A stretch of DNA of 58,091 nucleotides. Origin: a virus. The stretch is taken from positions 1-58,091 of the IMG/VR virus record IMGVR_UViG_3300032282_000782; one strand, written 5' to 3'. The position numbers were made by a program, and so were the translations under genes. Below, piece after piece: positions 725-54,567 of this stretch. The notes beneath the pieces are model-generated. The model worked only from the letters and a program-made list of their open reading frames with translations. It did not search any database and was not told where the DNA came from. Position 1 is the first letter of the stretch. Every line of letters starts with the position of its first letter.

Positions 725-2311
725 TTGGTTAACCCAACAATTAGAAGCAGTCGTCAGCTTAGTGTCCCCCTTGAAGAGGACATCACCGTCAACATCCTCT
801 TGTCCTTGAGAAAGAACCTAAGAGAGCTTGTAGCACAGAGTGCCAACACTGACTTCCTAACCTTCATACGTAAAGTAGCCCCCACTCTAGTCTCCGACTT
901 CAAGATGGGTAAGCACATTGAATACATTGCTGACAAGTTCCAGAAGGTAGAGTCTGGAGAGATTAAACGGCTGATGGTGTTCCTACCTCCCCGTAGTAGC
1001 AAGTCAGTTATCGGCAGTAAGCTGTTCCCTGCTTGGTACATTGGGAAACACCCAACCCAAGAAATCATGTCCATCTCCCACAGTGACCAACTAGCGTCAG
1101 ACTTTGGACGCTCAGTTCGTGATATTGTATCAATGGACGAATACCAAGGAATGTTCCCTGGTGTCCTCCTAAGGCAGGACGTTAGGGCAGCAGGGAAATG
1201 GAAGACCAACAAGCAGGGGTCATACTATGCCGCTGGTGTTAGGTCGCAGATCGCAGGGCGTGGTGCCCACATCGCTATCTTGGACGATGCAATGTCTGAA
1301 GAAGACGCTATCAGCCCTACTGGAAGAAAGTATATCAAGGAGTGGTGGCCAAGTGGACTTAGAACCCGACTCATGCCTAACGGCGCTATCATTATTATTA
1401 ACACTCGTTATCATTATGACGATCTATGTGGTTGGTTACTGAAGCAAGAATCCAAGATGGACTTAAGGAAGTCTGACAGGTGGCACGTTATCAGCATCCC
1501 AGCTTGGCTGGATGAGAAAGCCGCTGCTCTGTTGGGCTTGGAACAGGGTACCAGCTACTTCCCGGAATGGAAGTCTGATGCTGTCCTGAAGCTGGACGAA
1601 CTGGAAATACGTTCCACTAACGGTGGGAAGTACTGGGAGTCTCTGTACATGCAGAATCCCACCCCAGACGAAGGTGGCTTGATTAAGAAGTCCTGGATCA
1701 AGTGGTGGGACTACGACGAACCTCCAAGCTGTGATTTCATTATCCAGACCTACGATACAGCCTTCTCCACTAAGACTACTGCGGACTTCTCGGTTGTTCA
1801 GACATGGGGTATCTTTACCTACAAGGACACCCATGAGGGTGGCGCGGAGACTTTCAGCAGCCATCTGATCCTCTTGGGTAGTGTACGTGGGCGATACGAA
1901 TACCCAGAGCTTAGGCGTATAGCTCAGGAGCAGTACAAGAAGCACAGGCCGGATATCTGCATCGTAGAGAAGAAGGCCAGTGGTCAGTCCCTTATCCAGG
2001 ACATGCGAAGGGCTGGCTTACCAGTCATGGAATACAATCCAGATAGGGACAAGGTAAGCAGGGTGTACGCCTCTACTCCAATGTTTGAGTCTGGGAAAGT
2101 GTGGCTACCAAGAGGGAAGCAGTGGGCTGAAGAGCTACACGACGAATTGATTACCTTCCCTTACGCCCCACACGATGACCAAGTAGACACAACCACTATG
2201 GCTATCCACTACGTAAGGGAAAGCTGGCGTCTTGTCCACAAGGAAGACCCTAACTGGGACGAAGACAAAGAGAGTAAGCGCAGTAAGCGAATTGCGTATT
2301 GGCACGTTTAA
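725..2311 (+). CDS. Terminase large subunit (TerL)
   Basis: ATPase-nuclease motor that pumps DNA into the procapsid. The N-terminal ATPase shows a degenerate Walker A (PPRSSKS, near residue 93) and a Walker B (AILDDA). The C-terminal RNase H-like nuclease has its acidic residues in QTYDTAFS, CIVEKKASG and PHDDQVDT. Length (528 aa) fits the family. The first codon is TTG with a weak AAGAGA upstream; the next in-frame ATG (905) would remove conserved sequence, so the start is uncertain by a few codons. It opens the rightward structural block. Its small-subunit partner is not adjacent but about 29 kb away on the other strand. Confidence 0.95.
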   Translation: MVNPTIRSSRQLSVPLEEDITVNILLSLRKNLRELVAQSANTDFLTFIRKVAPTLVSDFKMGKHIEYIADKFQKVESGEIKRLMVFLPPRSSKSVIGSKLFPAWYIGKHPTQEIMSISHSDQLASDFGRSVRDIVSMDEYQGMFPGVLLRQDVRAAGKWKTNKQGSYYAAGVRSQIAGRGAHIAILDDAMSEEDAISPTGRKYIKEWWPSGLRTRLMPNGAIIIINTRYHYDDLCGWLLKQESKMDLRKSDRWHVISIPAWLDEKAAALLGLEQGTSYFPEWKSDAVLKLDELEIRSTNGGKYWESLYMQNPTPDEGGLIKKSWIKWWDYDEPPSCDFIIQTYDTAFSTKTTADFSVVQTWGIFTYKDTHEGGAETFSSHLILLGSVRGRYEYPELRRIAQEQYKKHRPDICIVEKKASGQSLIQDMRRAGLPVMEYNPDRDKVSRVYASTPMFESGKVWLPRGKQWAEELHDELITFPYAPHDDQVDTTTMAIHYVRESWRLVHKEDPNWDEDKESKRSKRIAYWHV

Positions 2312-8047: not shown

Positions 8048-8992
8048 ATGGCTATTAATCGTTCTGCTATTGCCAAAGAACTGCTCCCAGGTCTTAATGC
8101 CATCTTCGGTGTTGAGTATGGTAGCGTTGACGACGAACATCTTGCTCTTTACGCAGTTGAAAACTCAGACCGCGCATTTGAGGAAGAGGTTCTATTCACC
8201 GGCTTTGGTACAGCCCCCACAAAGACTGAAGGCGCTGCCGTTCAGTATGATGACGCATCAGAAGGCTACACCGCCCGTTACACAATGGAAACGGTAGCTC
8301 TTGCGTTTGCCATCACTGAAGAGTCAATGGAAGACAACCTCTACGACACATTTGCTAAACTACGTGCAAAAGGTCTTGCCCGTGCAATGGCAAACACCAA
8401 GCAAGTTAAAGCTGCTGACGTTTTCAACAACGGCTTCAGCACTAGCTATCTTGGTGGTGACGGTGCTGCACTATTCAGTGCATCTCACCCCACTGTAGGT
8501 GCTGGTAACTTGTCCAACACACTAGGCGCAACTGACTTCTCAGAAGCAGCCCTTGAGACTGGTTTGATCGCTATTGCACGTATGGTAGATGATCGTGGTA
8601 TTCTTATCGGCCTACAAGCTGATTCAATCCACGTTCCTCCTGATCTAGCATTCGTTGCTGACGAAGTACTACACTCTTCACTCAGCACGAAGCTTCAGAC
8701 GGCTGCTATCTACTCAGGTGCAACTGGTGTCAGCAACCTTAACAACCTAAACCCAATTAAGAACCAAGGTTTGGTTCCTGGTGGGTTCAATGTTAACCGT
8801 CGCTTCACTGACACTAATGCTTGGTTCATTAAAACCGACTGCCCCAACGGTGCAAAGATGTTTGTTCGCGCACCTCTCCAAACCAAGATGGAGCCAGACT
8901 TTGACACAGGTAACCTTCGCTTCAAGTCACGCGAACGTTATGCCTTTGGCTGGTCTGACTGGCGTGGGTTCTTCGGTTCTTCAGGCGCATAA
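8048..8992 (+). CDS. Major capsid protein
   Basis: 314-aa protein resembling the Mu gpT family of HK97-fold capsid proteins. Features are an N-terminal helix, a region with ITEESMEDNLYDTF and KALARAMAN-type helices (about 95-125), the ALFSASHPT loop (about 141), a P-domain, and a Trp-rich ending (FGWSDWRGFFGSSGA). A strong GGGGAGAC ribosome site sits 8 nt before ATG. A hairpin terminator follows 31 bp after the stop, consistent with a highly expressed transcript ending here. Confidence 0.88.
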   Translation: MAINRSAIAKELLPGLNAIFGVEYGSVDDEHLALYAVENSDRAFEEEVLFTGFGTAPTKTEGAAVQYDDASEGYTARYTMETVALAFAITEESMEDNLYDTFAKLRAKGLARAMANTKQVKAADVFNNGFSTSYLGGDGAALFSASHPTVGAGNLSNTLGATDFSEAALETGLIAIARMVDDRGILIGLQADSIHVPPDLAFVADEVLHSSLSTKLQTAAIYSGATGVSNLNNLNPIKNQGLVPGGFNVNRRFTDTNAWFIKTDCPNGAKMFVRAPLQTKMEPDFDTGNLRFKSRERYAFGWSDWRGFFGSSGA

Positions 8993-13522: not shown

Positions 13523-14962
13523 ATGACAACACTAACCGGTACAAAGATAGCTAACACCTACAAGGATTTGCTCCAAGTAAGTAATTCCAACTCAGGTATT
13601 GATGGCACACTTCGCACTGTCTCAGATGGTGAGGCTACTAACTCCCCACTCCAGCTATCACAAAGTACTGTTAACATCAATGGCACCTTTGCTCTTAACG
13701 GTATCTCCCTTACTGTTGATGCTTCTACCCTTAACTACCTTGGCGGTGGTGCTGTTAACCCATCTTTCGGTACAGTGTCTGTTAGCACTGGTTTAGACGT
13801 TGACGGCTATGCTACGTTTCAGATTATTAGTGCTACAGCAGGAACGTTCTCTGGTGTTGTATCAGCTACATCCTTCAGTGGTTCTGGTGCCAATCTAACT
13901 GGTATTACATCCGTTGCACTGGCTACTAACGTAAGTGGCGGCTATGGTGCATTGACTAGCTTGTCCAGCACGGATATTCGTGGAGCAACCGGCGGCTTCA
14001 CTGTAAAAGTATCTGCTGCTGCTGCTGAGTTTAGCGGTCCAGTAAGCGGCACCTCAGCAGTATTCTCTGGCGTCGTGTCCGCAGCATCTTTTGCTGGCGC
14101 TATAAGCGGTACTACAGGCAACTTTAGTTCACAGGTCAGTGCTGCCGGGTTAACACTAAGTGGTGTACTATCAGCTACCTCTGGGGTGTTCAGTGGTCAG
14201 GTATCTGGTGCGGGGGCGTCATTCTCTGGTATTGTGAGCGGTGCTTCAGCGGTATTTAGTGGTGTAGTATCTGCTGCTAACATTCGTGCTGGCGCAAGCT
14301 TCTTTACTGCTCAGGTGAGCGGTACAGGGCTAACATTAAGTGGTATTGTAAGTGGTACTTCGGCAGTGTTCTCCGGTATCGTCTCAGCAGCTTCATTTGC
14401 TGGTGCAGTCAGCGGTACCACAGGTAACTTTACTTCCCAAGTATCTGGAGTGGGTTCTACATGGTCTGGACCAGTCAGTGGTACTTCAGCGGTGTTCTCT
14501 GGTATCGTCTCAGCCAGTAAATTCTCTGGTGCTATTGATGCAACAATTGTATCCGCTGCTTCTGCTGTTTTCACTGGGGTAGTATCTGGTACCTCAGCAG
14601 TATTTAATGCAGTAGTATCGGTGTCAGGTTTCTCAGCAGTGTTTGCTGTATCCCCATGGATAAGCTTAACGGATGCAGTTTCTGTAGCAGTTAACTTTAA
14701 GACTGGTCAAAACTTTGTTGTGCAGCTGGGTGGTAACAGAACCTTAGAGAGCGGTACTAACTTAAGTCTTGGGCAATCTGGTTCAATCTTTATTGTACAA
14801 GATGGTACCGGATCAAGAACATTGTCTTATGGAGCTAATTGGAAGTTCCCCTCTGGTACAGCCCCTACATTAACCACTACATCAGCGGCTATTGATCGTT
14901 TAGACTACGTTATCTATGGTGTGTCTGCTATCCAAGCAGTCTTGACTAAAGACAATAAGTAA
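13523..14962 (+). CDS. Repetitive tail fibre protein
   Basis: 479 aa, almost entirely Ser/Gly/Ala/Val/Thr. From about residue 95 to 375 it repeats a pattern close to SGTSAVFSGVVSAASF about every 20-30 residues, consistent with a beta-structured trimeric fibre shaft. At DNA level the repeats differ mostly at synonymous positions, so they are old and kept by selection. Residues 376-479 form a different C-terminal domain (WISLTDAVSVAVNF ... KFPSGTAPTLTTTS) that recurs at the end of the fibre protein at 18498-19406. Binds host receptors or joins other fibres (inference). Confidence 0.75.
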   Translation: MTTLTGTKIANTYKDLLQVSNSNSGIDGTLRTVSDGEATNSPLQLSQSTVNINGTFALNGISLTVDASTLNYLGGGAVNPSFGTVSVSTGLDVDGYATFQIISATAGTFSGVVSATSFSGSGANLTGITSVALATNVSGGYGALTSLSSTDIRGATGGFTVKVSAAAAEFSGPVSGTSAVFSGVVSAASFAGAISGTTGNFSSQVSAAGLTLSGVLSATSGVFSGQVSGAGASFSGIVSGASAVFSGVVSAANIRAGASFFTAQVSGTGLTLSGIVSGTSAVFSGIVSAASFAGAVSGTTGNFTSQVSGVGSTWSGPVSGTSAVFSGIVSASKFSGAIDATIVSAASAVFTGVVSGTSAVFNAVVSVSGFSAVFAVSPWISLTDAVSVAVNFKTGQNFVVQLGGNRTLESGTNLSLGQSGSIFIVQDGTGSRTLSYGANWKFPSGTAPTLTTTSAAIDRLDYVIYGVSAIQAVLTKDNK

Positions 14963-14986
14963 AAAGAAAAGAAGGAATAATAACCA

Positions 14987-17380
14987 ATGGTCTTTAATTC
15001 AAGTATGCTTATGGCTGGTGCAACTGCTAATGCAAGTGACTACACCATCCCCTATTCCGCACGGTTTGTGTCAGGAAATAGCCCAGGCTTAAGTCGGGCA
15101 TGGGCAAGCGGTAATCGGACAACGGCAACGCTTTCTTTGTGGTTTAAGATCGGAAAGATTGACTCCACAACTAGAGAACTTGTGTCTCTTGGGTCAACAA
15201 GTGGAACGTCTAACGACTTAATTTTTTGTGAGTATGTTGGTGTATCTAACATCTTTCAAATATACTATTACAATTCCGGCGTTGTGTGGCAGAAGTCGTT
15301 CACGCAAGTTCTCCGTGATCCCTCCGCTTGGTACCACCTTGTTGTCGCCTTCGACACGACGAACGGCACGGCGGGTGATCGCGTAATTCCGTACCTTAAC
15401 GGGTCGCGGGTTACAGCACTTGGGACAAGCTCAAACCCAACTGCCAGCGCCAATCAGCCGTTCAATGTTTCTGGCGGCTCTTGCTATATTGGAAAGGAAC
15501 CGGCTGCTGCTGGTTACTGGGACGGCTACGTCTCTCAAGTTCAATGGATCGACGGACAAGCCCTAACTCCATCCTCCTTCGGCCAGACAAACACAAGCGG
15601 AGTGTGGGTGCCTAAAGCCTATGCAGGTACTTACGGGACTAACGGGTTCTTCTTAGCGTTTGGTAACAGCGCAGCGTTAGGGACTGACACATCCGGTAAT
15701 GCCAACACTTTCACAAGCAGCGGGCTTACTAGCGCGGATCAAGTCACCGACACGCCGACGAATGTTCGTGCGACGTGGAACCCGATTTTCCCGGTCCCGA
15801 CAAGCTACGCCGGAACTATGACGTGGACGGCTGGCAACAAGGTTGCGACGTTTACTAGTGGAGTTAATTCTGGCTTCGCGTGTTTGACGCAGGAAATCCC
15901 GGTCGGCATGAAGGCCGCAATTGAATTGACGCTTGGAGCAGGAACGTGGACGGGCGCGAGTGAGCGCATCGGCATCTTCGCGTCGAACGCTAATCTTACC
16001 GCTGGCGGCGCTTTCGGCGCTGGTGCGACTGAATGGTGCTATCGCGGCGACGGCCAGAAGATCAATAACGGTTCGGCTTCTGCTTACGGAACGGCGTGGG
16101 CGGCAACCAACGTCATCACCGTTGAAGTGGACAACCTGAACGGCACGCTTCGCTTCCGGCTGAACGGCACAGACCAAGGGCAAGCCTACACGTTCACGCC
16201 GACGCCTCTTGTCATCGGTGCGCACAGCTACAACAGCAAGGCCATCACGCTCAACAACGAGACGTTCGCGCAACCGGTCACGTCGGGTTTCTCGTTGCCC
16301 TGCACCAGCAACCTGCCCGCCCCAGCGATCAAAGACGGGTCGGCGCATTTCCAAACGACGCTGTACACCGGCACGGGCGCGACACTATTGGTTCACCAAA
16401 CTGGTAATGCGGACTTCACGCCCGACATGGTTTGGCTAAAAAGTCGGAGCGCGGCTACCGACAATCTGATTTTTGATGTTCTGAGGGGGGTCAACAAGTA
16501 CGTCAGGCCGAACGCAGTCGGCGCGGAGCTAACCGTCACCGATGGTTTGATGAGCTTCGACAGCGACGGTTTTACGCTAGGGGCAGATATTGGAACATCG
16601 CACTCTATCAACGATAGCGCGAAGACCTATGCCGCGTGGCAATGGAAAGCGGGCGGCGCTGGCGTGACGAATAGCGTCGGTTCAATCACTTCAACCGTTT
16701 CCGCGAACACAACGGCTGGGTTCTCGGTTGTCACTTACACCGGAACCGGCACGGCGGGAACCATTGGGCATGGGCTTGGCGTCGCGCCGAAGCTGATCAT
16801 CGTCAAGGCGCGTTCTGGCGTCACACAAGGTTGGCACGGCTACCATGCGTCACTCGGCAATGGCAGCTACGTTGTCTTGAACACAACGGCGGCGGTCGAT
16901 ACCGGCGCGATCTGGAATAGCGCAAGCCCTGATAGTTCAAAATTCTCTGTCGGCTCAAGTACGTGGCCGCAGGTCAACTCGGGAAGTGGAACCTACGTCG
17001 CCTATTGCTTCGCCGAAATCGCTGGCTTCTCAAAGATTGGGTCGTACACCGGCAATGGTTCCGCTGACGGGCCGTTTGTATATTGCGGGTTCCGCCCCGC
17101 GTTCGTGCTGACAAAACGATCAGACAGTGCGGACAGTTGGGTCATTAAAGACACGGCTCGCGATACCTACAATGTCGCAACAAAACGCCTTTATACGGAA
17201 CAAGCGGCTGCCGAAGACCCAAGTTCGTTATATGGCACGTATGACATTTTATCCAACGGATTTAAGTTCCGCGATAGCAATGGTCTTACGAATGGCAGCG
17301 GCGGAACATACGTCTTCGCCGCCTTTGCCTCTAACCCATTTGGTGGTGGTAGCGGTGCTGCCCCTGCTACGGCACGGTAA
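14987..17380 (+). CDS. Tail adhesin with LamG-like, SPRY-like and DUF7483-like domains
   Basis: 797 aa. Residues about 40-215 look like a laminin-G/concanavalin A fold (ATLSLWFKIGKID, WYHLVVAFDTTNGTA, YIGKEPAAAGYWDGYVSQVQW). Residues about 275-415 resemble a SPRY-type beta-sandwich (MTWTAGNKVATF ... NVITVEVDNLNGTLRFRLNG). Residues about 440-790 match my memory of phage DUF7483 (FTPDMVWLKSR, AYAAWQWKAGG-like, GLGVAPKLIIVKARSG). These are carbohydrate/protein-binding folds, so host recognition is likely. From about 15300 the gene is markedly more G+C-rich than its neighbours (65 % in 16141-16200 against 48 % in 20101-20160). This indicates transfer. AAGGAATAATAACC precedes ATG. Confidence 0.7.
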   Translation: MVFNSSMLMAGATANASDYTIPYSARFVSGNSPGLSRAWASGNRTTATLSLWFKIGKIDSTTRELVSLGSTSGTSNDLIFCEYVGVSNIFQIYYYNSGVVWQKSFTQVLRDPSAWYHLVVAFDTTNGTAGDRVIPYLNGSRVTALGTSSNPTASANQPFNVSGGSCYIGKEPAAAGYWDGYVSQVQWIDGQALTPSSFGQTNTSGVWVPKAYAGTYGTNGFFLAFGNSAALGTDTSGNANTFTSSGLTSADQVTDTPTNVRATWNPIFPVPTSYAGTMTWTAGNKVATFTSGVNSGFACLTQEIPVGMKAAIELTLGAGTWTGASERIGIFASNANLTAGGAFGAGATEWCYRGDGQKINNGSASAYGTAWAATNVITVEVDNLNGTLRFRLNGTDQGQAYTFTPTPLVIGAHSYNSKAITLNNETFAQPVTSGFSLPCTSNLPAPAIKDGSAHFQTTLYTGTGATLLVHQTGNADFTPDMVWLKSRSAATDNLIFDVLRGVNKYVRPNAVGAELTVTDGLMSFDSDGFTLGADIGTSHSINDSAKTYAAWQWKAGGAGVTNSVGSITSTVSANTTAGFSVVTYTGTGTAGTIGHGLGVAPKLIIVKARSGVTQGWHGYHASLGNGSYVVLNTTAAVDTGAIWNSASPDSSKFSVGSSTWPQVNSGSGTYVAYCFAEIAGFSKIGSYTGNGSADGPFVYCGFRPAFVLTKRSDSADSWVIKDTARDTYNVATKRLYTEQAAAEDPSSLYGTYDILSNGFKFRDSNGLTNGSGGTYVFAAFASNPFGGGSGAAPATAR

Positions 17381-31080: not shown

Positions 31081-31455
31081 ATGCAAACATGGGAATACTT
31101 TACAGAGAAGGAACTAGCAGACACACGCACAGGTGAGTGCAGGATGGACCCTGACTTTATGGTTAAGCTGGTGAAGCTACGGGACTTGCTTGGTAAGCCC
31201 ATGAAGATTACTTCCGGGTACAGGTCCAAGGAGACTAACGATGCCGTAGGTGGTGCGGAGAACTCACCGCATATGTACGGTAAAGCAGTTGATGTGTACA
31301 TCCAAGGAGCGGATGCTCTTCGCCTAATTGAACTGGCGTTACAGGTTGGGTTCGTTGGTATTGGTGTTAGTCAGAAGGGACAAAGTAGGTTCATTCACAT
31401 TGACACTATAGATAATAGCCCTAACCAGCCTAGACCAACGATATGGTCTTACTGA
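31081..31455 (+). CDS. M15-family peptidase, probable endolysin
   Basis: 124-aa single-domain zinc D-Ala-D-Ala-type carboxypeptidase (Peptidase_M15_3 kind). It cleaves the peptide bridge of peptidoglycan. Zinc ligands read as H64, D71 (in SPHMYGKAVDV) and H106 (in FIHID). No signal peptide, so it should need a holin, encoded just across the convergent junction (31998-32384). It ends the rightward block, overlapping the leftward small terminase gene by 7 bp. Confidence 0.85.
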   Translation: MQTWEYFTEKELADTRTGECRMDPDFMVKLVKLRDLLGKPMKITSGYRSKETNDAVGGAENSPHMYGKAVDVYIQGADALRLIELALQVGFVGIGVSQKGQSRFIHIDTIDNSPNQPRPTIWSY

Positions 31456-31997
31456 TCGTCTCCAGGCTCTTCAAGTAGTTCGTCTAGGTTCTCTTCCAAG
31501 AGTTCGTCTACTTCAGCCTCTTCGTCATCGCTGTCGTCATCGTCTACCTGATCTGGTGGGGACGCAAACCAGCTACATGCTAAGAACAGTGCAGTAGCTC
31601 TCTGCTCCCCCAGTATCTCTAAGCTTCTGATAATCTCAGCCTCTAATTCCTTAACGGTTTTAGGGGCTTCTTCGTCGTCGTCTTTTCCCTTTGCGCGGGA
31701 TAGGAGTTCAAGAGCTTTTAAAGCTGACCCAGTGTTGTTATTGTCTTTAGCGTATTTATACTGGGCTTCTATTTCGGAGATAACATCAATGTTAGTCTCC
31801 ATCTCCTTCTCTAGGTTCTCTATACGCTCTTGAATCTTTGGTGACTTAAGCAGTCGTGATCCTTGGTTGTAGGCACTCCGTTCAGAGTACCCAGCAGCTT
31901 TAGCAGCTTCAGTGGCGTTACGGTACAGGACGTAGGCTTGGCAGAACTTCTCCCGCTTAGTGTCTAGTCCGTTACCGTCTAGCTCTTCCTTTGCCAC
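31449..31997 (-). CDS. Terminase small subunit (TerS)
   Basis: 182 aa. Helix-turn-helix at the N-terminus (KREKFCQAYVLYRNATEAAK, then AAGYSERSAYNQGSRLL) matches Terminase_2-type small subunits, followed by helices for oligomerisation and a very acidic tail (DDDDSDDEEAEVDELLEE). It binds viral DNA and feeds it to TerL. Unusually it lies on the opposite strand from TerL and about 29 kb away, as the last gene of the leftward block. Its stop overlaps the endolysin gene by 7 bp. Confidence 0.85.
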   Translation of the reverse strand: MAKEELDGNGLDTKREKFCQAYVLYRNATEAAKAAGYSERSAYNQGSRLLKSPKIQERIENLEKEMETNIDVISEIEAQYKYAKDNNNTGSALKALELLSRAKGKDDDEEAPKTVKELEAEIIRSLEILGEQRATALFLACSWFASPPDQVDDDDSDDEEAEVDELLEENLDELLEEPGDDQ

Positions 31998-32570: not shown

Positions 32571-32948
32571 TTAACCTCCAGAATTTCCTTCAACAAAACA
32601 AATAATACCACGAACAGGGATGTAACACACAATCATTTGGAAGAACGGATTACGAACAATTACCTCAGGGTCTGTAATCTTAACTTCTTCTGGAATAGGA
32701 TGGGCTGAGTTAACTTCTTCAATCCAAGCCCACCGCACACCATTTGGTGCTATCCATACTTCCCGCTGCTTACAGTCTGCTTCGCTACAGCAGGATATAC
32801 CTGCCGGTAGGTCGTTTAGTTGTACTGGTGTCTTTAGTGATCTAAACCAGTTAGCTATCTCATTACTTTGCTGGGAGTACACTACAGGTGAGAATACTAC
32901 CATACTTAACAGTAGTACGTAAATAAACTCTCTAAACTTCTTAAGCAT
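32571..32948 (-). CDS. Secreted Cys-rich protein
   Basis: 125 aa. The N-terminus (MLKKFREFIYVLLLSMVVFS) is a typical signal peptide with likely cleavage after VVYS. The mature part has SCCSEADC and two later Cys (MIVCYIPVRGIICFVEG), suggesting disulphides in the periplasm. Similar small CCSEADC proteins occur in alphaproteobacteria and their phages as I recall. ATG 32948 overlaps the stop of the gene upstream; the 20 extra residues of the longer frame lack a start signal. Function unknown. Confidence 0.65.
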   Translation of the reverse strand: MLKKFREFIYVLLLSMVVFSPVVYSQQSNEIANWFRSLKTPVQLNDLPAGISCCSEADCKQREVWIAPNGVRWAWIEEVNSAHPIPEEVKITDPEVIVRNPFFQMIVCYIPVRGIICFVEGNSGG

Positions 32949-35259
32949 CTTTAAAGAAGTCTTTATAGTAATTCTTGTGTCCCATACGTGAGGCTCTAAA
33001 GATTTCACCAGCTAGTGTTGGCTTAGAGCCTTCATACAACGATACATTCATTTCAACCTGTTCAGAGTTGAATAACTTCTCACAGTCCTGGGCCATAGCA
33101 AGTAGCTCACCAGTGGTCCAGAACAAGACATCGTTAGTCTCTACGTTAAGGAACTTAGGACGATCCTCTTCGTCACGTTCCTTCTTCATATCCTCTGTAA
33201 GGCTCTCTTCTGGGATACAGCAGTCAAAGCCAAAGAGGTGGAAGTTCCGTACACCAAACACATGGAACATCCCGATAGACCGCATAGCAGAGCAGGTACC
33301 GCCAGTAACGAACACTGCATCCTGGGGAATGTGGACACCATCAGCCAGAGCAAATCCACCATCCTCACCAGCCTTCTGTACCCTACGAACAGCCTCACAG
33401 TAAGCGTGCCAGCCGTAGATGTTTGAAGTCTTTTCCATCAGGTGCTTAGTCATGGACAAGTCAGTCATGCTGGCAACAAGGAACTTAGTGCTTAAGTCAA
33501 CAGTCTCAAACAGGTCTTTACGGACCTTACCATGAGTAGATAAGCCATCTGCTGGGCGCGGATCAAGGATCACACAGGCATAGGGCTTAATGCCGTTGGC
33601 AAGGAGAAGAGGATAGGAGTGTTTGACACACACCACTACACCGTTAGTATCCTTGATAACCTGCTTTAGTTTGTCGTAATCAATTGATGGACCAGCGGAT
33701 ACAATGATCGCATGATCCGCATTCACCGTCCCTGTCTTAACGACAGACCAATCTTTAATCAGCTTAAGGTTACCATTGACGTTATCAATGATGTCGTCCT
33801 TAGGCATACTGTCCCGTGGCTTCACAACGATGGGGGCGCGGCGGAACTTGTCTGGTAGCTGGGGTAGGTTAGGATCAGATAGGAGTACAGCAAGGTGTGT
33901 ACGTCCACCACCTAACACCGGATCATCTGATGGTAGCACCACTACACGGTAGGGTTCCTTACCCTTGAAGGACTCAATAAGCCGGTTGGTGCCTAAGTAT
34001 TCCTCACCAAGGATGTTGCCTTGAGCATCTTTGGAGAAGTAGTCGTCAAACACCAAACAGGGGACATGCTTAAGGGCTTCGTAGTCACTTAGGACAGTCT
34101 CTTCACTATGCCCACCGTCAATGAATGCAAACTTAAGACCGGACAAAATACCGGACTTCAGTGCTGCTGGGAGTGTTACTTTGGAGTCCCCCTTGTGCAG
34201 GTCAAAGGTAAACTCCTTACCCCGGAGGAACATAGCACCAGCAAAATCACTAAGACGCTTGGATACGATATCAACGGTGTTATGGGGTTTGGAATTTAAT
34301 TCATAGGTGTCCAGTTCCTGGGTAGCTTCTTCAAACAGGTCAAACCCAATGTAGTGGACCTTATCTAACTTCTCAAAGGAAGCCAGAGCCATTTCAATAG
34401 CCCTGCCACCGTTCCAGGTGCCCACCTCTAGGATGGTTTCTGAGCCGTACAGACGGACCAGATCAGCAAGCTGCTTGTACCGGCCAGCCTTAACGTCTGG
34501 AGATGTCTCCTGAGTCCATAATTTGGCCTTCTTAGCCCCTTTGTAGTGGTGTAGGTACTGCTGAAGCGGAGAGTTACCAAACGCATCCAGCCCTGCTGTA
34601 TCGGGGCTGAGGTTATGGACACGCATACCGTGAGCTTTGTAGATGTTCAGCAACCGTTCAAAGATAAAGCCATCGTGCCACTCACGATAGGAGATGACTT
34701 CCCCAATGTCATAGCACCCACGAAGATCGGCCAAAAGGTAGTGGGGAGTTTCATAGTCAAGGTTAAAGGCAATAAAGGATGTCTCTGAGTAGTCTACATC
34801 CTTACGGCCAAGGTGGACGATCTCTGCCTTCTCTGGGAGCATTGGACGTAGCCGCTTAGCTGACAGCGGGGTGTGGGTAACTGTGTCTGCGTCAAGCCAG
34901 ATCATCCAGCCGCCGTGTACGTCCTGCTCACTGATCTCAAGAGAAAGGTCAGTCATAGCATAAATCTTGTGGCACCACTTAATGGCATCCAAGCGCCAGT
35001 TGTAAGGCGTCTTACCTTGTGCTGTACCATCGTACTGAGCCATGCGCTGCCGGTAGTTTACCATGTCCTGGACGTTGTTCAGGTTGCGGTACTCAATGAG
35101 AGGTGACTGTGGTAAATCTGCCACAAGCTCCTCTGGGAAGTCATGATAGTAAGCAATAAGCTTTAGGCTGTCCTGCCAGTTCTCAATAACTGAATGGAGC
35201 ATCTTCTTAGCGTACTGTTGGTAACCGTCAGCACTAAACGATGTTACGAAGCGGATCAT
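32941..35259 (-). CDS. Three-domain glycosyltransferase-methyltransferase-DUF115 protein
   Basis: 772 aa. Residues about 1-235 are a GT-A-type glycosyltransferase with the DxD motif WLDADT (D123, D125). Residues about 245-470 are a class I SAM methyltransferase (ETILEVGTWNGGRAIEM at 274-290, FAFIDGGHSEETVL at 377-390). Residues about 512-700 match the DUF115/MptE-like fold (DHAIIVSAGPSIDYDKL, then VVCVKHSYPLLLANGIKPYA, then GGTCSAMRSIGMFHVFG). DUF115 proteins are often linked to glycan or flagellin modification. The fusion suggests one polypeptide that attaches and methylates a sugar on a surface glycan, DNA or virion protein. Target unknown. The next gene overlaps its end. Confidence 0.72.
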   Translation of the reverse strand: MIRFVTSFSADGYQQYAKKMLHSVIENWQDSLKLIAYYHDFPEELVADLPQSPLIEYRNLNNVQDMVNYRQRMAQYDGTAQGKTPYNWRLDAIKWCHKIYAMTDLSLEISEQDVHGGWMIWLDADTVTHTPLSAKRLRPMLPEKAEIVHLGRKDVDYSETSFIAFNLDYETPHYLLADLRGCYDIGEVISYREWHDGFIFERLLNIYKAHGMRVHNLSPDTAGLDAFGNSPLQQYLHHYKGAKKAKLWTQETSPDVKAGRYKQLADLVRLYGSETILEVGTWNGGRAIEMALASFEKLDKVHYIGFDLFEEATQELDTYELNSKPHNTVDIVSKRLSDFAGAMFLRGKEFTFDLHKGDSKVTLPAALKSGILSGLKFAFIDGGHSEETVLSDYEALKHVPCLVFDDYFSKDAQGNILGEEYLGTNRLIESFKGKEPYRVVVLPSDDPVLGGGRTHLAVLLSDPNLPQLPDKFRRAPIVVKPRDSMPKDDIIDNVNGNLKLIKDWSVVKTGTVNADHAIIVSAGPSIDYDKLKQVIKDTNGVVVCVKHSYPLLLANGIKPYACVILDPRPADGLSTHGKVRKDLFETVDLSTKFLVASMTDLSMTKHLMEKTSNIYGWHAYCEAVRRVQKAGEDGGFALADGVHIPQDAVFVTGGTCSAMRSIGMFHVFGVRNFHLFGFDCCIPEESLTEDMKKERDEEDRPKFLNVETNDVLFWTTGELLAMAQDCEKLFNSEQVEMNVSLYEGSKPTLAGEIFRASRMGHKNYYKDFFKDA

Positions 35260-35268
35260 TGTTTCTTA

Positions 35269-36015
35269 TTATTCCTTTAAGTAGTTGCTGTACAGGTGTC
35301 TCCATTCAGTGGAGTATTCGTTGTCAATGTCACGCTTTGCTTTCCAGTTAGGGAAGAGAGGACCACCCGTTGTGAAGTGGACCAGCTTGGCGTCCAGTGT
35401 GGGTGCGCTATGACCGTCTAACCAATTCCATGCTGGGTCAATACCAGCAATCTCATTAGACTCCAGCCACTCAAAGCCGTGTAGCCATGATCCAGGCTTG
35501 GTGTTAACGTCTGCTACAGTCAGCCTGTCGTGAGCCGGGTGTTCGCAGTTCCACAGCATGAGGCTGGACCAATTCTTCTTGGAGTAGTTAGTCTGAACCT
35601 GTCCGTCCATCTTAAGGGTGTCTGTGGACTGGTAATTATGCTTAACTACACTTAACGCTGTGTACTGGCTAGCATACCTATCAAATACTTCAGATATGTC
35701 AGACCGTAAATACATATCGGCATCCAGGAATAAAGCATAACCCCTGCGCTGGTTAAGAAAAGGACACAGAAAGCGCGTAAACGAAAACTCAGTGGAGAAC
35801 GGTTTTTTGTCAAAGCAGTCTACCTTTACGCCATCTTGGTTAATTTCATGGGACCGCCAGTACAGTCCGATCTTACGGAGGTTGTGTTGCAGAACGGGGA
35901 CAATGTTATAGGGCTGCTTAGTGTTGTCACGAATAGACTTCTCCAAGACCTTAACATAGGCATCCTCTTTAGGATCGTAGCCAATGTAGATTGTGTTTAA
36001 CTGCTTAAAGGGCAT
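35269..36015 (-). CDS. Glycosyltransferase (GT8-like)
   Basis: 248 aa. N-terminal nucleotide-binding segment TIYIGYDPKEDAYVKVLE, DxD motif at D98/D100 (YALFLDADMYL), and a C-terminal HFTTGGPLFPNW motif common to GT-A proteins of the GT8 or capsular-sugar type. It would move a sugar from a nucleotide sugar to an acceptor. It directly precedes the fusion glycosyltransferase gene (9-bp gap), suggesting the same pathway. Confidence 0.72.
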   Translation of the reverse strand: MPFKQLNTIYIGYDPKEDAYVKVLEKSIRDNTKQPYNIVPVLQHNLRKIGLYWRSHEINQDGVKVDCFDKKPFSTEFSFTRFLCPFLNQRRGYALFLDADMYLRSDISEVFDRYASQYTALSVVKHNYQSTDTLKMDGQVQTNYSKKNWSSLMLWNCEHPAHDRLTVADVNTKPGSWLHGFEWLESNEIAGIDPAWNWLDGHSAPTLDAKLVHFTTGGPLFPNWKAKRDIDNEYSTEWRHLYSNYLKE

Positions 36016-36067: not shown

Positions 36068-36288
36068 GTCTGTTTGTCAACCTTTTTCTTTGGGAAAGGT
36101 GGAGGAGGAAGTGGTTGCCAGTCTGTTGGATCAATACCTATAAACCCGCCGTAGCTTTCGGCAGAGTACCATCCTTTATTAAAGGGGGAATAAATACCTA
36201 CCAGGATTCCATCGCTTGTTGAGTAAACCAGCACACGTGTATCCTCTGGTGCTGTCTCAATAGGCATCCAGTCTAAGCTCATTTCCAT
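36064..36288 (-). CDS. DUF551-like protein
   Basis: 74 aa. The pattern W-x-PIETAP-x-DTRVLVYS at the start and the acidic-free ending DPTDWQPLPPPPFP match the DUF551 type of small phage proteins. Function unknown. It overlaps the upstream oxygenase by 10 bp. Confidence 0.7.
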   Translation of the reverse strand: MEMSLDWMPIETAPEDTRVLVYSTSDGILVGIYSPFNKGWYSAESYGGFIGIDPTDWQPLPPPPFPKKKVDKQT

Positions 36289-36842
36289 CTATCTCCTCTG
36301 AACCAACCAACTAGTGAGTAGCGTGTCCCAACTTCTACAGGTGTTACCCTGTGCTGAATAAAGGATGGGAAGACGCACACGGTGCCTGTGTTCTTTAACG
36401 CAGTGAGGCGTTTAACACGGTTGTCCTTAGGGTTGCCCCACTCTTCTACTTCAAAGTGGCCACCAGTGTATGTCTCATTCAAAGCTATAGAGACAGACAG
36501 CTTCCTAAAAGCTGGATCGGTGGGCTTCTCTACGCCCATGTCTACATGCCAATCGTAATACTGCCCTGGCTCATACACACTAAACTGTGGTACTTCAAAT
36601 GAGTTAATGTGGAAGTTCCAACCGGCTTCTACGTTAGCGTGTTTAACGTACTCACCCATAAGCTCAGATATAGATGGCTCACTAAGCCATGCTATGGTGT
36701 TGTTACGAACACCGTTGTCACGGACGCTGACATCGTTCTTGTGTACGTCAGCCTGTAGTTGCTGGGCTTCCAGGCCCATCCTGATAATAATTTCACACAG
36801 TTCTTCTGGGATAGGTTCGTCAAAGATGTAGTAAGGCTTCAT
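36279..36842 (-). CDS. 2-oxoglutarate/Fe(II) oxygenase, prolyl-hydroxylase-like
   Basis: 187-aa P4Hc-type dioxygenase using Fe(II), O2 and 2-oxoglutarate. Iron ligands read as H99 and D101 (in YYDWHVDMG) and H164 (in SFIQHRVTP); R174 (GTRYSLVGWF) fits the 2-oxoglutarate contact. Length is typical of viral and bacterial members. Substrate unknown: prolines in a virion protein, a nucleic acid base, or a host protein. Neighbours are glycosyltransferases, so hydroxylation followed by glycosylation is conceivable (inference). Start overlaps the upstream stop (ATGA). Confidence 0.82.
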   Translation of the reverse strand: MKPYYIFDEPIPEELCEIIIRMGLEAQQLQADVHKNDVSVRDNGVRNNTIAWLSEPSISELMGEYVKHANVEAGWNFHINSFEVPQFSVYEPGQYYDWHVDMGVEKPTDPAFRKLSVSIALNETYTGGHFEVEEWGNPKDNRVKRLTALKNTGTVCVFPSFIQHRVTPVEVGTRYSLVGWFRGDRWK

Positions 36843-44190: not shown

Positions 44191-45915
44191 TTAGTGAGTC
44201 TCCTGCCAAGTGGTCCCAATCTTAAAGCCGCTGTCCAGTGGACACTTGGACCCTACAAGTAACTCTGTGTTCTTGATAGCCAACTTTGTGATGGCTCCAA
44301 GCTGTTCAGCGTGTTCCTTACGTACTTCAAACTGGTATTCGTCGTGGATGGATGCAACAAGCTTAACATCCAGCTTAGCTTCTCTGTATAGCTTAGTAAT
44401 CTCTACAAGCCACTGCTTACACACAACAGCGCCAGCACCTTGAATTAGCAGGTTCATAGCTGCGTGTGGTGAACGTACAGTCAACCGTCTACCGTCCATA
44501 CCAACAAGGTAACCACGTTTAGCTGACATTTCTACACGGCTGCGTAATGTAGCTAGTGCTGGGGTGTTCTCTAGGAAGCTTGTAATGAGACGCTGCCCAT
44601 CCTTTGCTGAGCCGCCCGCAATGGCTCCAATCTTAGCTGGACCGGCACCATAGATAAAGGCGTAGATAAACGTCTTAGCTTGATCCCTGGTGTCCAAGCC
44701 AGCAGCCTTCTGGTTAGCGGTGTGTACGTCACCTTCTGTGACTTCCTTGATAAACTTTAGGTCACCCATGTAGTGAGCTAAGGCTCTTAGTTCAAGAGAA
44801 GCAGCATCGCAGCCAAGAAGGTGATAACCAAAAGAAGATACCGTCCAACATTCCCTGCACTCTTTACCATACGGGGAATAAGATGCTGGCACTTGAGCCA
44901 TATTAGGACCGCTATGGCCCATTCTGTTAGAGATAGCTTGAAGCGTTGATACCCTACCGTGAACCTTACCATCTTGTCCTACCTTATCTAACCAACTGGT
45001 TACCTGTGCCTGTCTCTTTTCTACCATAAGGTACTCAGCAATGAGCTTAGCCTCTGGTATGTTAAGAGTTTCAAGCGTTGTTTCGTCTACTATAGCCTGT
45101 CCCTTCTCTGTGAAGTTCTTAGGCTTCCACCCACGGAACTCCAACTGCCTGACAATCTGCTGGCGTGACGACAGATTGAACTCAGGCCACTCAATGATGC
45201 TGTGTGGACCAGCAACAGAAGCCTTATCTTCAAGATGGTTAAGGCCAACAGCAGATAGCTGACCATCTTGTTTGTACTTAGGTACACAGTCTCTAACGTG
45301 TACAGGCAGCGGAAGGAATGACCGTTGTACTTCGTCCTCTAAGACCTTAGCACGTTCCTGTAGCCGTGCCTGTAGCAGCATAGCCTTCTGACAATCAAGA
45401 GTAAAGCCATTACGCTCCTGCTCAGTAATTAACTCACGTACCTTGTACTCTAGCTCTATGCTCTTACGTGAGAAGAGCTTCATGTTAGGCTGGAAGTGGT
45501 TCCATAGTTTGTGTGTTAAGTTAACGTCATTCTTACAATAGTCAATCATATAGGATGTAACTGGACCATCAAAGTCTGGTGGTTCCATTTTGGGAAACTG
45601 TAGCTGCTTGCCCCAGTACTCCAGTGAGTGTTTACCTAGTGGGTAAAACATATACGACAGGATCATTGTGTCCTCACACTGTTCTGTCTTAATGTCTGTA
45701 CCAAGAAGACGGTTCAGTGTGGGGACATCAAAGTCAATGATGTTGTGACCAATGAATGTAGTATTGTTGTCTTTAACGAACTCAGGGAATTTGTAGTTTA
45801 TTTCCCCGGCTGTAGACCATGCGTAGTAAGCACCTGTGTCTATGTCTTTAGCTATGATGCACTTAACTATTGTGCATGGGATAAGGTCTGTCTCAATGTC
45901 AAGTACTAACCTCAT
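44191..45915 (-). CDS. DNA polymerase (family A, T7-like)
   Basis: 574-aa replicative polymerase with 3'-5' exonuclease. The exo motifs are LDIETD (D6, E8), GHNIIDFD and YCKNDV. The polymerase motifs are A GCDAASLELRALAHY, B RDQAKTFIYAFIYGAG and C SIHDEYQ (H524, D525). Motif B has Tyr where E. coli Pol I has Phe762, as in T7, the type often linked to strictly lytic phages. No thioredoxin-binding loop was recognised. The 3' end touches the nuclease gene and the 5' end overlaps the small gene upstream by 17 bp. Confidence 0.95.
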   Translation of the reverse strand: MRLVLDIETDLIPCTIVKCIIAKDIDTGAYYAWSTAGEINYKFPEFVKDNNTTFIGHNIIDFDVPTLNRLLGTDIKTEQCEDTMILSYMFYPLGKHSLEYWGKQLQFPKMEPPDFDGPVTSYMIDYCKNDVNLTHKLWNHFQPNMKLFSRKSIELEYKVRELITEQERNGFTLDCQKAMLLQARLQERAKVLEDEVQRSFLPLPVHVRDCVPKYKQDGQLSAVGLNHLEDKASVAGPHSIIEWPEFNLSSRQQIVRQLEFRGWKPKNFTEKGQAIVDETTLETLNIPEAKLIAEYLMVEKRQAQVTSWLDKVGQDGKVHGRVSTLQAISNRMGHSGPNMAQVPASYSPYGKECRECWTVSSFGYHLLGCDAASLELRALAHYMGDLKFIKEVTEGDVHTANQKAAGLDTRDQAKTFIYAFIYGAGPAKIGAIAGGSAKDGQRLITSFLENTPALATLRSRVEMSAKRGYLVGMDGRRLTVRSPHAAMNLLIQGAGAVVCKQWLVEITKLYREAKLDVKLVASIHDEYQFEVRKEHAEQLGAITKLAIKNTELLVGSKCPLDSGFKIGTTWQETH

Positions 45916-46171
45916 GACCCATACCCTCTTTCTTCCAATCCAAGAACTTGAATGGTAGCTTATCTAGCTTAGCTTGTCCAGCGCCATCTACACGAACTTC
46001 GTTGTCATTGATACACTGGTACAGGACATCTTTGTTGGACCCAACGTATGCCGCTGTCTTTGGTTGCCCTTTCTCAGTGTAGTAACATAGCATCCACTGG
46101 TTTTCGTCGCTAGTCAAGAACCACATGTTATTCAGTGGGATGTTCAGCTTCTTCTGTTGTGGTTTGCTCAT
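45899..46171 (-). CDS. Hypothetical protein before the polymerase
   Basis: 90 aa, with a beta-hairpin core (MWFLTSDENQWMLCYYTEKG, VGSNKDVLYQC) and a basic C-terminal end. It overlaps the HNH gene upstream (44 bp) and the polymerase downstream (17 bp). No catalytic signature. Its role in replication is only a positional guess. Confidence 0.5.
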   Translation of the reverse strand: MSKPQQKKLNIPLNNMWFLTSDENQWMLCYYTEKGQPKTAAYVGSNKDVLYQCINDNEVRVDGAGQAKLDKLPFKFLDWKKEGMGHEVST

Positions 46172-46628
46172 CTTCCATACTCTCTATCTTGGCTTTAAGG
46201 TTTAGAGCCAACTGGTATAGCTCTTGCCATGAGGCCGACTGTTTAATAGTGTTCGCTTTGCTTGATATAACCCATACATTCCCTTTAACGTAACCCTTAG
46301 TTGGGTCTATACGATCCACTGACGGGCTATTGGGCGTTGGCCCAGATTTCCCTGACCCCCTGCCCGATACCAGGGGTATCCCCAGTAACGGGCAGTGTGT
46401 TGGCGCTACAACATCCTCCTTGTCTAAATTAAAGTCCAATCCCTTTTTCTTAGCCCTGCCACGAAGACTGTGTATAGTAAGAGAAAGAGGGTCTTTGTCT
46501 AAAGTAACCCTGTACGATCTTCCAGGATTATTTATAGCGTATTGCTTCTTAACGTCACGGTATCTTTCTAAATTAGCAAGCCGATACCGTTTGTCAGAAG
46601 CAGCGCGTTTCTCTTTATCATAAGTCAT
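46128..46628 (-). CDS. HNH endonuclease-like protein
   Basis: 166-aa basic protein with a helical N-terminus. The conserved phage HNH-family signature is CPLLGIPLVSG ... SVDRIDPTKGYVKGNVWVIS followed by KANTIKQSA. The first His of classical HNH is replaced by the VDRI segment typical of this subgroup. Located between primase-helicase and polymerase, as free-standing phage HNH genes often are. It overlaps the helicase end by 11 bp. Confidence 0.7.
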   Translation of the reverse strand: MTYDKEKRAASDKRYRLANLERYRDVKKQYAINNPGRSYRVTLDKDPLSLTIHSLRGRAKKKGLDFNLDKEDVVAPTHCPLLGIPLVSGRGSGKSGPTPNSPSVDRIDPTKGYVKGNVWVISSKANTIKQSASWQELYQLALNLKAKIESMEDEQTTTEEAEHPTE

Positions 46629-52738: not shown

Positions 52739-53080
52739 TTAATCAGCCGCTTTACGGTAGCCTTCCGGGATGTACTCACGCTGACGGCGTACTTCATACT
52801 TTCCTTCCGGTAGTTTCAATGCTTCGTGGGTGTCAAAGCTACGCAGGTGTTCAATAACAGCTTCGTCAGCTACGTCCAAGTAAGCAATGAACGCATTAGT
52901 CTGGTCAATGAACATTTGTGCTGAACGCTCCAGCACAACATGGTTGTGACCTGTCTCACTATGAGCGACTACGTGGAACCCCTCCTGTGCATCTGATTTA
53001 ACAGCGGCGGCGGGGACAACATCAATACGGCGGATCATAAGGTCGCCTTGGAAACAAGGTTTGTTTGTTACGATTTTCAT
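52739..53080 (-). CDS. Hypothetical protein
   Basis: 113 aa beta-rich protein with His-rich loop (VVAHSETGHNHVVLERSAQM) that might bind metal. Basic C-terminus (YEVRRQREYIPEGYRKAAD). Starts on an ATGA overlap with AAGGAG before it, directly after the DUF6745 gene, with which it is probably co-translated. Confidence 0.6.
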   Translation of the reverse strand: MKIVTNKPCFQGDLMIRRIDVVPAAAVKSDAQEGFHVVAHSETGHNHVVLERSAQMFIDQTNAFIAYLDVADEAVIEHLRSFDTHEALKLPEGKYEVRRQREYIPEGYRKAAD

Positions 53081-54567
53081 GTACGGAACTCCTTCATTTT
53101 AAGTAGGTCTGTAGGAATGTCATAGGTCCAGGCATTCCCTTCAATTGCGGTCTTAGTCTCTGGGGGTACAGGAATAGCAAACCTACGTCCAGTACCACAG
53201 GTTACACGAATAAACTTCTCTTTACCAATATCAGGGATGGTTACTTCAACCAGTTCCCCTATCTCAGGGTCTTCGTCTTTGTCAAGTGTCTTTGCGTCTA
53301 GTTCGCTTAGAATACGATCCCATCCGACAATCTCACAAGCAGCACGGCGCAGTTCAACGTTCTCATGCTTTAGAGCTATCTCTGGTGTGATTGTTGACTT
53401 ATCCATAATCCATTTCTCTGGGACATAAACACCGTGCCAAGCATACATAGCTGTACCATCCCGCCACTTACAGAACGGACCATTCTCACAGTGAGGGCGG
53501 TTTTGGTCATCCACAAGGAGAACTTCTGGACGATCAGATATAATGCAGAACTCTTCGTGCATAATACGTCTTCCACCGTGTAAACTACCTAGTTCCCAAT
53601 AGTTGTATTTTGAATAGTCAATGGGGAGTTTAGCCACATCGCGGAAGAATGTCAGGAAAGCATCCCAGTAACTCCACTGGCTTCCCCCCTGTTCCATACG
53701 CCACGCTTCGGAAGCACATTTTAAAGCGAACTTATAGTTACCTCCAAATAAGTCTTTAGCCAAAGATACAAGCTGCTGAATATCTAAGTTATACCAACTT
53801 TCACTAAGTGTAGCGTTACTGTGGGTGGCGTTGCCGGTGGCGGCTCTGGTGGCGACGTTGGTGGCGTCGTAGGTGGCGTCGTTGGTGGCGTTGCTGGTGG
53901 CGTCGTTGGTGGCGTCGTTGGTGGCGGCGTAGGTGGCGGCGTTGGTGGCGGCGTGGGTGGCGTCGTAGGTGGCGTTGCTGGTGGCGTCGTAGGTGGCGGC
54001 TCTGGTGGCGTCGTAGGTGGCGGCTCTGGTGGCGTTGCTGGTGGCGTTGCCGGTGGCGGCTCTGATGGCGTTGCTGGTGGCGGCGTAGGTGGCGGCGTTG
54101 GTGGCGGCGTTGGTGGCGTCGTAGGTGGCGACGTTGGTGGCGTCGTTGGTGGCAGCGTTGGTGGCGTCGTAGGTGGCGACGTTGGTGGCGTCGTTGGTGG
54201 CGGCGTTGGTGGCGGCTCTGATGGCGTTGCTGGTGGCGACGTAGGTGGCGACGTTGGTGGCGTTGCTGGTGGCGGCTCTGGCGGCGTAGATGGCGTTGCT
54301 GGTGGCGCTGTTACGAAGGTGCCAAATAGCAGCAGCAAAACCACCAGCAAATCGCATAACAAACGGAGATTGAACAAACACGATACGATTGCGCGGTGGT
54401 GGTGTTAGCCCAGCACTACGATACAAACCCTCCACGGCGTTAACCATTTGGTCTTTGTCATGCTGGTCCATTTGTTTGGTGGACATTGCGTTAGCAATCC
54501 ACTTGTCACGGTACACCGGGAGCATCTTCCTATGTTCGCCAGTCAGTTCATATTTCTTTTTAGCCAT
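53077..54567 (-). CDS. DUF6745 protein with tetrapeptide-repeat insert
   Basis: 496 aa. The N-terminal 85 residues (YRDKWIANAMSTKQMDQHD, RNRIVFVQSPFVMRFAGG) and residues about 255-496 (HCENGPFCKWRDGTAMYAWH, NVELRRAACEIVGWDRIL) match DUF6745. Between them, residues 86-249 consist of about 40 consecutive xxAT tetrapeptides with x1 = N/Y/S/R/G and x2 = D/A/V/N. This may be a solenoid or a flexible linker. Function of the family is unknown. The start codon is on the edge of the gap after DUF932. Confidence 0.7.
   Translation of the reverse strand: MAKKKYELTGEHRKMLPVYRDKWIANAMSTKQMDQHDKDQMVNAVEGLYRSAGLTPPPRNRIVFVQSPFVMRFAGGFAAAIWHLRNSATSNAIYAARAATSNATNVATYVATSNAIRAATNAATNDATNVATYDATNAATNDATNVATYDATNAATNAATYAATSNAIRAATGNATSNATRAATYDATRAATYDATSNATYDATHAATNAATYAATNDATNDATSNATNDATYDATNVATRAATGNATHSNATLSESWYNLDIQQLVSLAKDLFGGNYKFALKCASEAWRMEQGGSQWSYWDAFLTFFRDVAKLPIDYSKYNYWELGSLHGGRRIMHEEFCIISDRPEVLLVDDQNRPHCENGPFCKWRDGTAMYAWHGVYVPEKWIMDKSTITPEIALKHENVELRRAACEIVGWDRILSELDAKTLDKDEDPEIGELVEVTIPDIGKEKFIRVTCGTGRRFAIPVPPETKTAIEGNAWTYDIPTDLLKMKEFRT
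53821..54309 (-). repeat. 12-bp minisatellite encoding xxAT units
   Basis: About 40 tandem 12-bp units, on the plus strand close to GGTGGCGTCGTA with variable last bases. They run in frame through the DUF6745 gene and leave all other frames open too (hence long antisense Pro/Gly frames). Units differ mainly at codon positions for x1/x2. Copy number is likely to change by slippage. Confidence 0.9.

Follow-up and report, generated by a model that had tools for sequence, protein, structure and literature searches.

The window analyzed here is the whole of IMG/VR virus record IMGVR_UViG_3300032282_000782, a stretch of 58,091 nucleotides. On its minus strand lies an open reading frame that begins with ATG, contains no internal stops and encodes 772 amino acids, joining a GT-A glycosyltransferase (residues 1 to ~246), a class I methyltransferase (~277-460) and a DUF115/MptE-like domain (~494-684 and beyond) in one polypeptide. 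The features of this fusion gene and its surroundings are collected in Table 1. As the first-pass annotation of this DNA had pointed out, a second glycosyltransferase gene adjoins the fusion; it is GT8-like, and its relatives are annotated as glycosyltransferases. The small terminase gene at the other side closes a run that holds replication and glycosylation genes; the large terminase gene (725-2311, plus strand) is some 30 kb away on the opposite strand. A major capsid protein (8048-8992) and a tail fibre-like protein (13523-17380), both also encoded in the window, are candidate targets of glycosylation. Elsewhere in the window a long near-repeat run (ATNAATYDATN...) precedes a DUF6745 domain (53077-54567, minus strand).

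Table 1. Features of the fusion locus, with window coordinates and the evidence for each.
Feature	Coordinates	Strand	Evidence
Small terminase subunit (TerS), downstream end of same-strand run	31449..31997	-	Pfam Terminase_2 4e-16
Fusion gene (GT-A + SAM methyltransferase + DUF115/MptE-like), 772 aa	32941..35259	-	Pfam, structure model, motif conservation
DUF115/MptE-like (Maf_flag10) domain, residues 475-772; Pfam match 494-684	32944..33837	-	Pfam, Maf 5mu5 best fold, sub-threshold PseD, conservation
Methyltransferase domain, residues 247-474; E278xGTWNGG, D307, D381GGHS; Methyltransf_24 at 277-398	33838..34521	-	Pfam, SafC/3tfw folds, TylF in 7/32 relatives
GT-A domain, residues 1-246; DAD 123-125, EWHDGF 193-198, H238-x-K-G	34522..35259	-	Foldseek LARGE1/GT6; conserved motifs
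GT8-like glycosyltransferase (LFLDADMY), stop 9 bases upstream of fusion ATG	35269..36015	-	PHROG 28018 E 6e-48; Pfam Glyco_transf_8 0.036
2OG-Fe(II) oxygenase (PKHD/P4H-like)	36279..36842	-	Pfam 3.6e-15; NCBIfam PKHD-type

The three folds had been proposed earlier from short motifs, in this order and in a single frame, and Pfam matches, AlphaFold2 modeling followed by Foldseek comparison, and motif conservation scored over 110 distinct fusion proteins all concur with that assignment. The motifs themselves were located at residues 121-126 (WLDADT), 277-285 (LEVGTWNGG), 379-385 (FIDGGHS), 521-531 (SAGPSIDYDKL) and 653-659 (GGTCSAM), and the active-site motifs are near-invariant among the 110 proteins. 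The full-length model, built from 32 homologues, reached a mean pLDDT of 82.6 and a pTM of 0.53, so the placement and orientation of the domains relative to one another are uncertain. Block by block it matched GT-A enzymes (LARGE1, α-1,3-GalT and blood-group GTA/GTB), O-methyltransferases (3tfw and SafC) and the Maf glycosyltransferase 5mu5, and Pfam Methyltransf_24 and MptE-like were both matched in all 32 aligned relatives. Searching PDB sequences with domain profiles gave nothing useful, the folds having come from the structure search, and PHROGs held no family matching the fusion protein. PADLOC returned no match either, and the idea of a defense-system protein was dropped on that account. 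With no evident signal or membrane segment, and an ORF that opens straight into the GT-A fold, the protein is probably soluble.

In the N-terminal domain the GT-A enzymes named above were matched by Foldseek at E values of about 1e-8 to 1e-6. The D123-A-D125 motif is present in 109 of the 109 aligned rows that have letters at this site, and H238, K240 and G241 are conserved in 110/110. GT-A fold, DxD and a conserved C-terminal His-x-Lys-Gly are thus common to the phage domain and the LARGE1/GT8 and GT6 glycosyltransferases, but the phage domain lacks a significant Pfam (best DUF1647, 0.03) or PDB sequence match. On the strength of the model and these motifs it is predicted to transfer a sugar. 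Free-standing homologues of the domain occur in other phages. Pelagibacter phage Mosig and two phage contigs (L088, 4953-9839; L089, 4986-10431) have them adjoining or close to GT8-like genes, while for the homologue of an uncultured podovirus there was no GT8 match. In L088 an asparagine synthetase/GATase-like ORF lies between the GT-A and GT8-like homologues, which suggests aminated sugars in another glycan pathway; L089 has a same-sized ORF at the same place.

The methyltransferase domain was recognized by Pfam Methyltransf_24 (E 1.6e-7, 32.6 bits against a cut-off of 26.3), and TylF, also matched in part of the relatives (Table 1), is a macrolide-sugar O-methyltransferase. E278 of motif I (ExGxxxGG) and the acidic residue following it, D307, are found in all methyltransferase-bearing rows, and T281, D381 and S385 are likewise conserved in every one. 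The domain itself is not universal. Five viral contigs encode proteins of 549-564 aa that consist of the GT and DUF115 domains and share the synteny of the full fusions; no methyltransferase homologue was found elsewhere on these contigs, which are fragments, by a search run without a positive control. In the tree the five sit at two separate places, so methyltransferase-free forms arose at least twice inside methyltransferase-bearing clades. A more distant relative (L248, from a Flavobacteriaceae bin, 40% identity) also lacks the domain and adjoins a GT8-like gene. The bootstrapped tree requires three changes of methyltransferase state and no bootstrap tree permits only one, a count to be taken with caution since L248 is a long branch; the history would be either one gain and two losses or three losses. 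Because the methyltransferase is absent in separate lineages that have retained the rest, the GT and DUF115 domains form a constant core and methylation an optional decoration; such absences are what would be expected of a decoration, and they count in favor of a glycan-building role.

For the C-terminal domain, PF01973 (MptE-like, formerly DUF115) was matched with an E value of 5.9e-14 (52.6 bits against a cut-off of 34.6), in agreement with the fold, and the family scored above cut-off in 12 of 12 phage records of the group. Modeled alone (pLDDT 84.3, pTM 0.84), the domain resembled Maf 5mu5 first (2.3e-8) and the M. jannaschii HPPK (MptE, 8sd5) second, more weakly (1.4e-6). PF01973 corresponds to Maf_flag10, a domain of the enzymes by which flagellin is O-glycosylated on Ser/Thr; Maf enzymes transfer nonulosonic acids from CMP donors, and the Maf central domain resembles the sialyltransferase Cst-II (PMC11339370). 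The only NCBIfam match of the fusion was PseD (flagellin modification), confined to the single stretch 512-614 and scoring 24.5 bits against a cut-off of 670, with the Maf N- and C-terminal domains not recognized. Judged by its sequence, the fusion protein is not a Maf/PseD enzyme. Residues S521, G523, K546, H547, D566-P567-R568, S574-T575-H576 and G653-G654-T655 are invariant in 110/110 proteins, which argues that the domain is catalytic or ligand-binding. P524 of the SxGPS motif is kept in just 73 of the 110, and its nucleotide site may therefore vary. One clade (L068, L071, L074, L077 and L080) has lost this proline while keeping all other motifs, some members with a one-residue deletion (SGG-EIDF, SGG-TIDF), and an altered donor or activity is possible there. 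Our literature searches found no relevant papers on DUF115/MptE-like proteins in phages.

The GT8-like gene lies upstream and on the same strand in 109 of the 109 distinct fusions that have such a gene on their contig. Its stop and the beginning of the fusion GT domain are separated by -8 to +55 bases in 102 of these, the frames often overlapping, and by 527-676 bases in the other 7; the short spacing suggests translational coupling in most. The PKHD-type 2OG-Fe(II) oxygenase is a frequent rather than universal upstream neighbor (57/83 loci), and TerS lies downstream in 71/83. In the 12 records of the group, in all of which PF01973 was found, the NeuB and CTP_transf_3 (CMP-sugar synthetase) families gave 0 matches; donors would hence come from the host, and a CMP-activated one would be unavailable in hosts that lack CMP-nonulosonates or CMP-Kdo.

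To avoid ascertainment through the fusion gene itself, DNA polymerase (polA) was used as an anchor, with 80 loci retained. The GT8-like gene was found in all 25 loci that have at least 7,038 bases after polA, and directly after it the fusion ORF was present in all 24 contigs with at least 7,050 bases; in the 25th (L165) the sequence ends before the fusion position. Most of these 24 ORFs encode all three domains, one (L168) lacks the methyltransferase, and several end inside the gene at the edge of the stretch, three of them at the edge of the 10-kb flank. The fusion diverges in step with polA when loci are compared in pairs (Mantel r 0.94 over 23 loci), with values of 0.85 for GT8 and 0.83 for TerS. 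It is thus part of the core gene set of an uncultured phage group and is inherited vertically, and its presence in every contig that could be tested, together with its tracking of polA, implies that it serves the virus's own cycle rather than being occasional cargo. One contig about twice a genome long (L182/G011, IMGVR_UViG_3300025168_000039, 106,894 bases) carries two differing DUF115 fusion copies some 55 kb apart (45814-46404 and 100915-101484), and is probably two related phage genomes joined in assembly.

Among isolate records, tblastn with the whole fusion protein returned just two GT-domain matches (25-28% identity), and the methyltransferase and DUF115 domains had no isolate-record matches. 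Profile searches likewise found no fusion homologue in the stretches read of HTVC023P, HTVC027P, HTVC104P, CRP-902, DSL-LC04 and Slicky01, the isolates that come closest in their terminase, capsid or polymerase (about 40-53% identity). The earlier statement that no described phage enzyme has this full set of domains consequently holds for isolates, none of which encodes the fusion, but it does not hold for the databases: a full-length structural match, A0A6J7X5Q0 from an uncultured Caudovirales phage (714 aa, 31% identity over 787 columns), is already in BFVD/UniProt with apparently the same architecture, uncharacterized and named only 'Methyltransferase domain containing protein'. The architecture is therefore not unseen, only unstudied. 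Against genome contigs, profile A1 found no host-genome relatives, and profile A4 found two MAG contigs, L247 (Sneathiella bin) and L248, both with the phage synteny and so probably phage contigs in bacterial bins; they are either mis-binned or a weak hint at hosts.

Taken together, we favor, with a probability of roughly 0.55, a reading in which the fusion is a soluble three-activity transferase that, with its GT8-like partner, builds and usually methylates a short glycan, with a virion protein as its likeliest carrier. Sugars from host nucleotide sugars would be added by the GT8-like enzyme and by the GT-A domain, the DUF115 domain, as a Maf relative, would then add a further residue, possibly CMP-activated and nonulosonic-acid-like, and in most lineages the methyltransferase would cap a sugar hydroxyl. 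The acceptor would most likely be a virion protein made in the same cytoplasm of the infected cell. We infer the domain chemistries, donors, acceptor and order of steps from folds, motifs and gene context, and a virion-protein glycan is drawn by analogy with the chlorovirus enzyme A064R, which fuses comparable activities for a capsid glycan. The first-pass annotation had suggested that a sugar is built and methylated on a virion protein, phage DNA or a host glycan: the first half is consistent with all the evidence, and a viral enzyme of the same logic has been assayed (PMC9614988), while of the targets DNA is made unlikely by the lack of base-modifying genes in the ORFs scanned and a virion protein is preferred to a host glycan. 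A more specific proposal, tentative and in our judgment rather doubtful, is that of a core virion glycosylation in which the Maf-type domain takes an acidic sugar that the host makes in CMP-activated form (nonulosonic acid or Kdo) and attaches it to the glycan made by the neighboring and fused glycosyltransferases.

Several other explanations were weighed against a virion glycan. There is virtually no prospect that the fusion is an artefact of assembly or sequencing, an objection that the first-pass annotation had itself raised. A search for the same domain order in viral metagenomes found the single-frame fusion in hundreds of IMG/VR contigs, which excludes a sequencing-caused joining of two frames and an assembly product alike: a single-sequence scan gave 299 relatives, of which 80 were retained, nearly all full length and in one frame, and a DUF115 profile search gave at least 557 matches. 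A frame broken near residue 120 in L058 (4115-6418), by sequencing error or decay, might be taken to speak for an artefact; it is the sole such case among the retained relatives. It is also improbable, if less so, that DUF115 is a diphosphokinase-like (MptE-type) or substrate-binding module accessory to a GT and a methyltransferase. The M. jannaschii enzyme is almost as near in fold as Maf, the Pfam family is named after this archaeal pterin diphosphokinase, and the SxGPS proline is variable, but Maf fits better, the lone NCBIfam match is to PseD, the four residue blocks from K546-H547 to G653-G654-T655 never vary in the 110 proteins, and DUF115 is kept in every variant found, which the methyltransferase is not.

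Phage glycosyltransferases that alter the host O-antigen are well known, and the cassette could modify a host LPS sugar, capsule or flagellin so as to exclude superinfecting phages or mask receptors, a conceivable though doubtful role to which the likeness of DUF115 to Maf/PseD, which acts on flagellin (PMC11339370), lends weight. The proximity of the cassette to holin-like and terminase genes is neutral in this respect. No membrane segment, flippase or lipid-carrier enzyme was recognized in the cassette, however, and the genes seen around it included none for flagellin or LPS. The phages that typically convert surface glycans are temperate ones equipped with membrane-bound Gtr proteins, whereas the fusion is a core gene, present in each polA-anchored contig of sufficient length. 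Its lack of an evident signal or membrane segment and its universal conservation in the group make an acceptor in solution, for instance a virion protein, more likely than a host glycan bound to the membrane. Glycosylation and methylation of phage DNA, as an anti-restriction hypermodification, is highly unlikely. Phages with sugar-modified DNA exist, and the oxygenase, ThyX and a dCMP deaminase-like gene lie on the same strand, but the oxygenase is PKHD/P4H-like and many loci with the fusion lack it, the methyltransferase is similar to O-methyltransferases that act on sugars and small molecules, and to our knowledge DUF115 has no DNA-modifying precedent. Among the ORFs scanned we found no hydroxymethyl-base synthase, TET/JBP-type oxygenase, base kinase or C5-DNA methyltransferase, and a DNA hypermodification cassette was rejected for this reason.

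If the acidic-sugar proposal is true, the particles of a large uncultured phage group would be coated with an acidic sugar by a dedicated three-activity enzyme, through a pathway that is probably required. More broadly, our data suggest glycan decoration as core rather than accessory biology in a widespread uncultured phage group, and bring a domain of flagellin glycosylation (Maf/DUF115) into phage biology.

Three known systems invite comparison. Like Maf (PF01973, 5mu5), the phage DUF115 domain has the Maf central-domain fold, the PF01973 signature and a weak PseD match, but it lies outside any flagellar locus and is fused to a GT-A domain and a methyltransferase. Pelagibacter phage Mosig EXVC030M (MT647606) has a GT-A-domain homologue followed directly by a GT8-like homologue, beside two FkbM-type methyltransferases and near a putative sulfotransferase, a grouping that counts for a glycan-building role; these are separate genes in a different phage family, and no homologue of the fused methyltransferase or DUF115 domain was found in the stretch read. 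The closest parallel in logic is A064R of chlorovirus PBCV-1, a soluble enzyme of 638 aa that combines a GT-A domain with DxD, a second glycosyltransferase and a SAM methyltransferase, and that makes and methylates the terminal part of the capsid glycan; all three activities have been assayed, and for every domain there are natural mutants whose glycans are truncated as expected (PMC9614988). Both proteins hold three transferase domains with an N-terminal DxD-bearing GT-A domain and a methyltransferase, that of A064R methylating the terminal sugar. The order is GT-GT-methyltransferase in A064R and GT-methyltransferase-DUF115 in the phage fusion, and the second domain of A064R, which transfers rhamnose, belongs to a new GT family and is not described as DUF115. 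A064R comes from an algal giant virus and the fusion from a tailed phage. The likeness is taken as a functional analogy, in which sugar building and methylation appear to have been combined in one protein by two kinds of virus that are unrelated.
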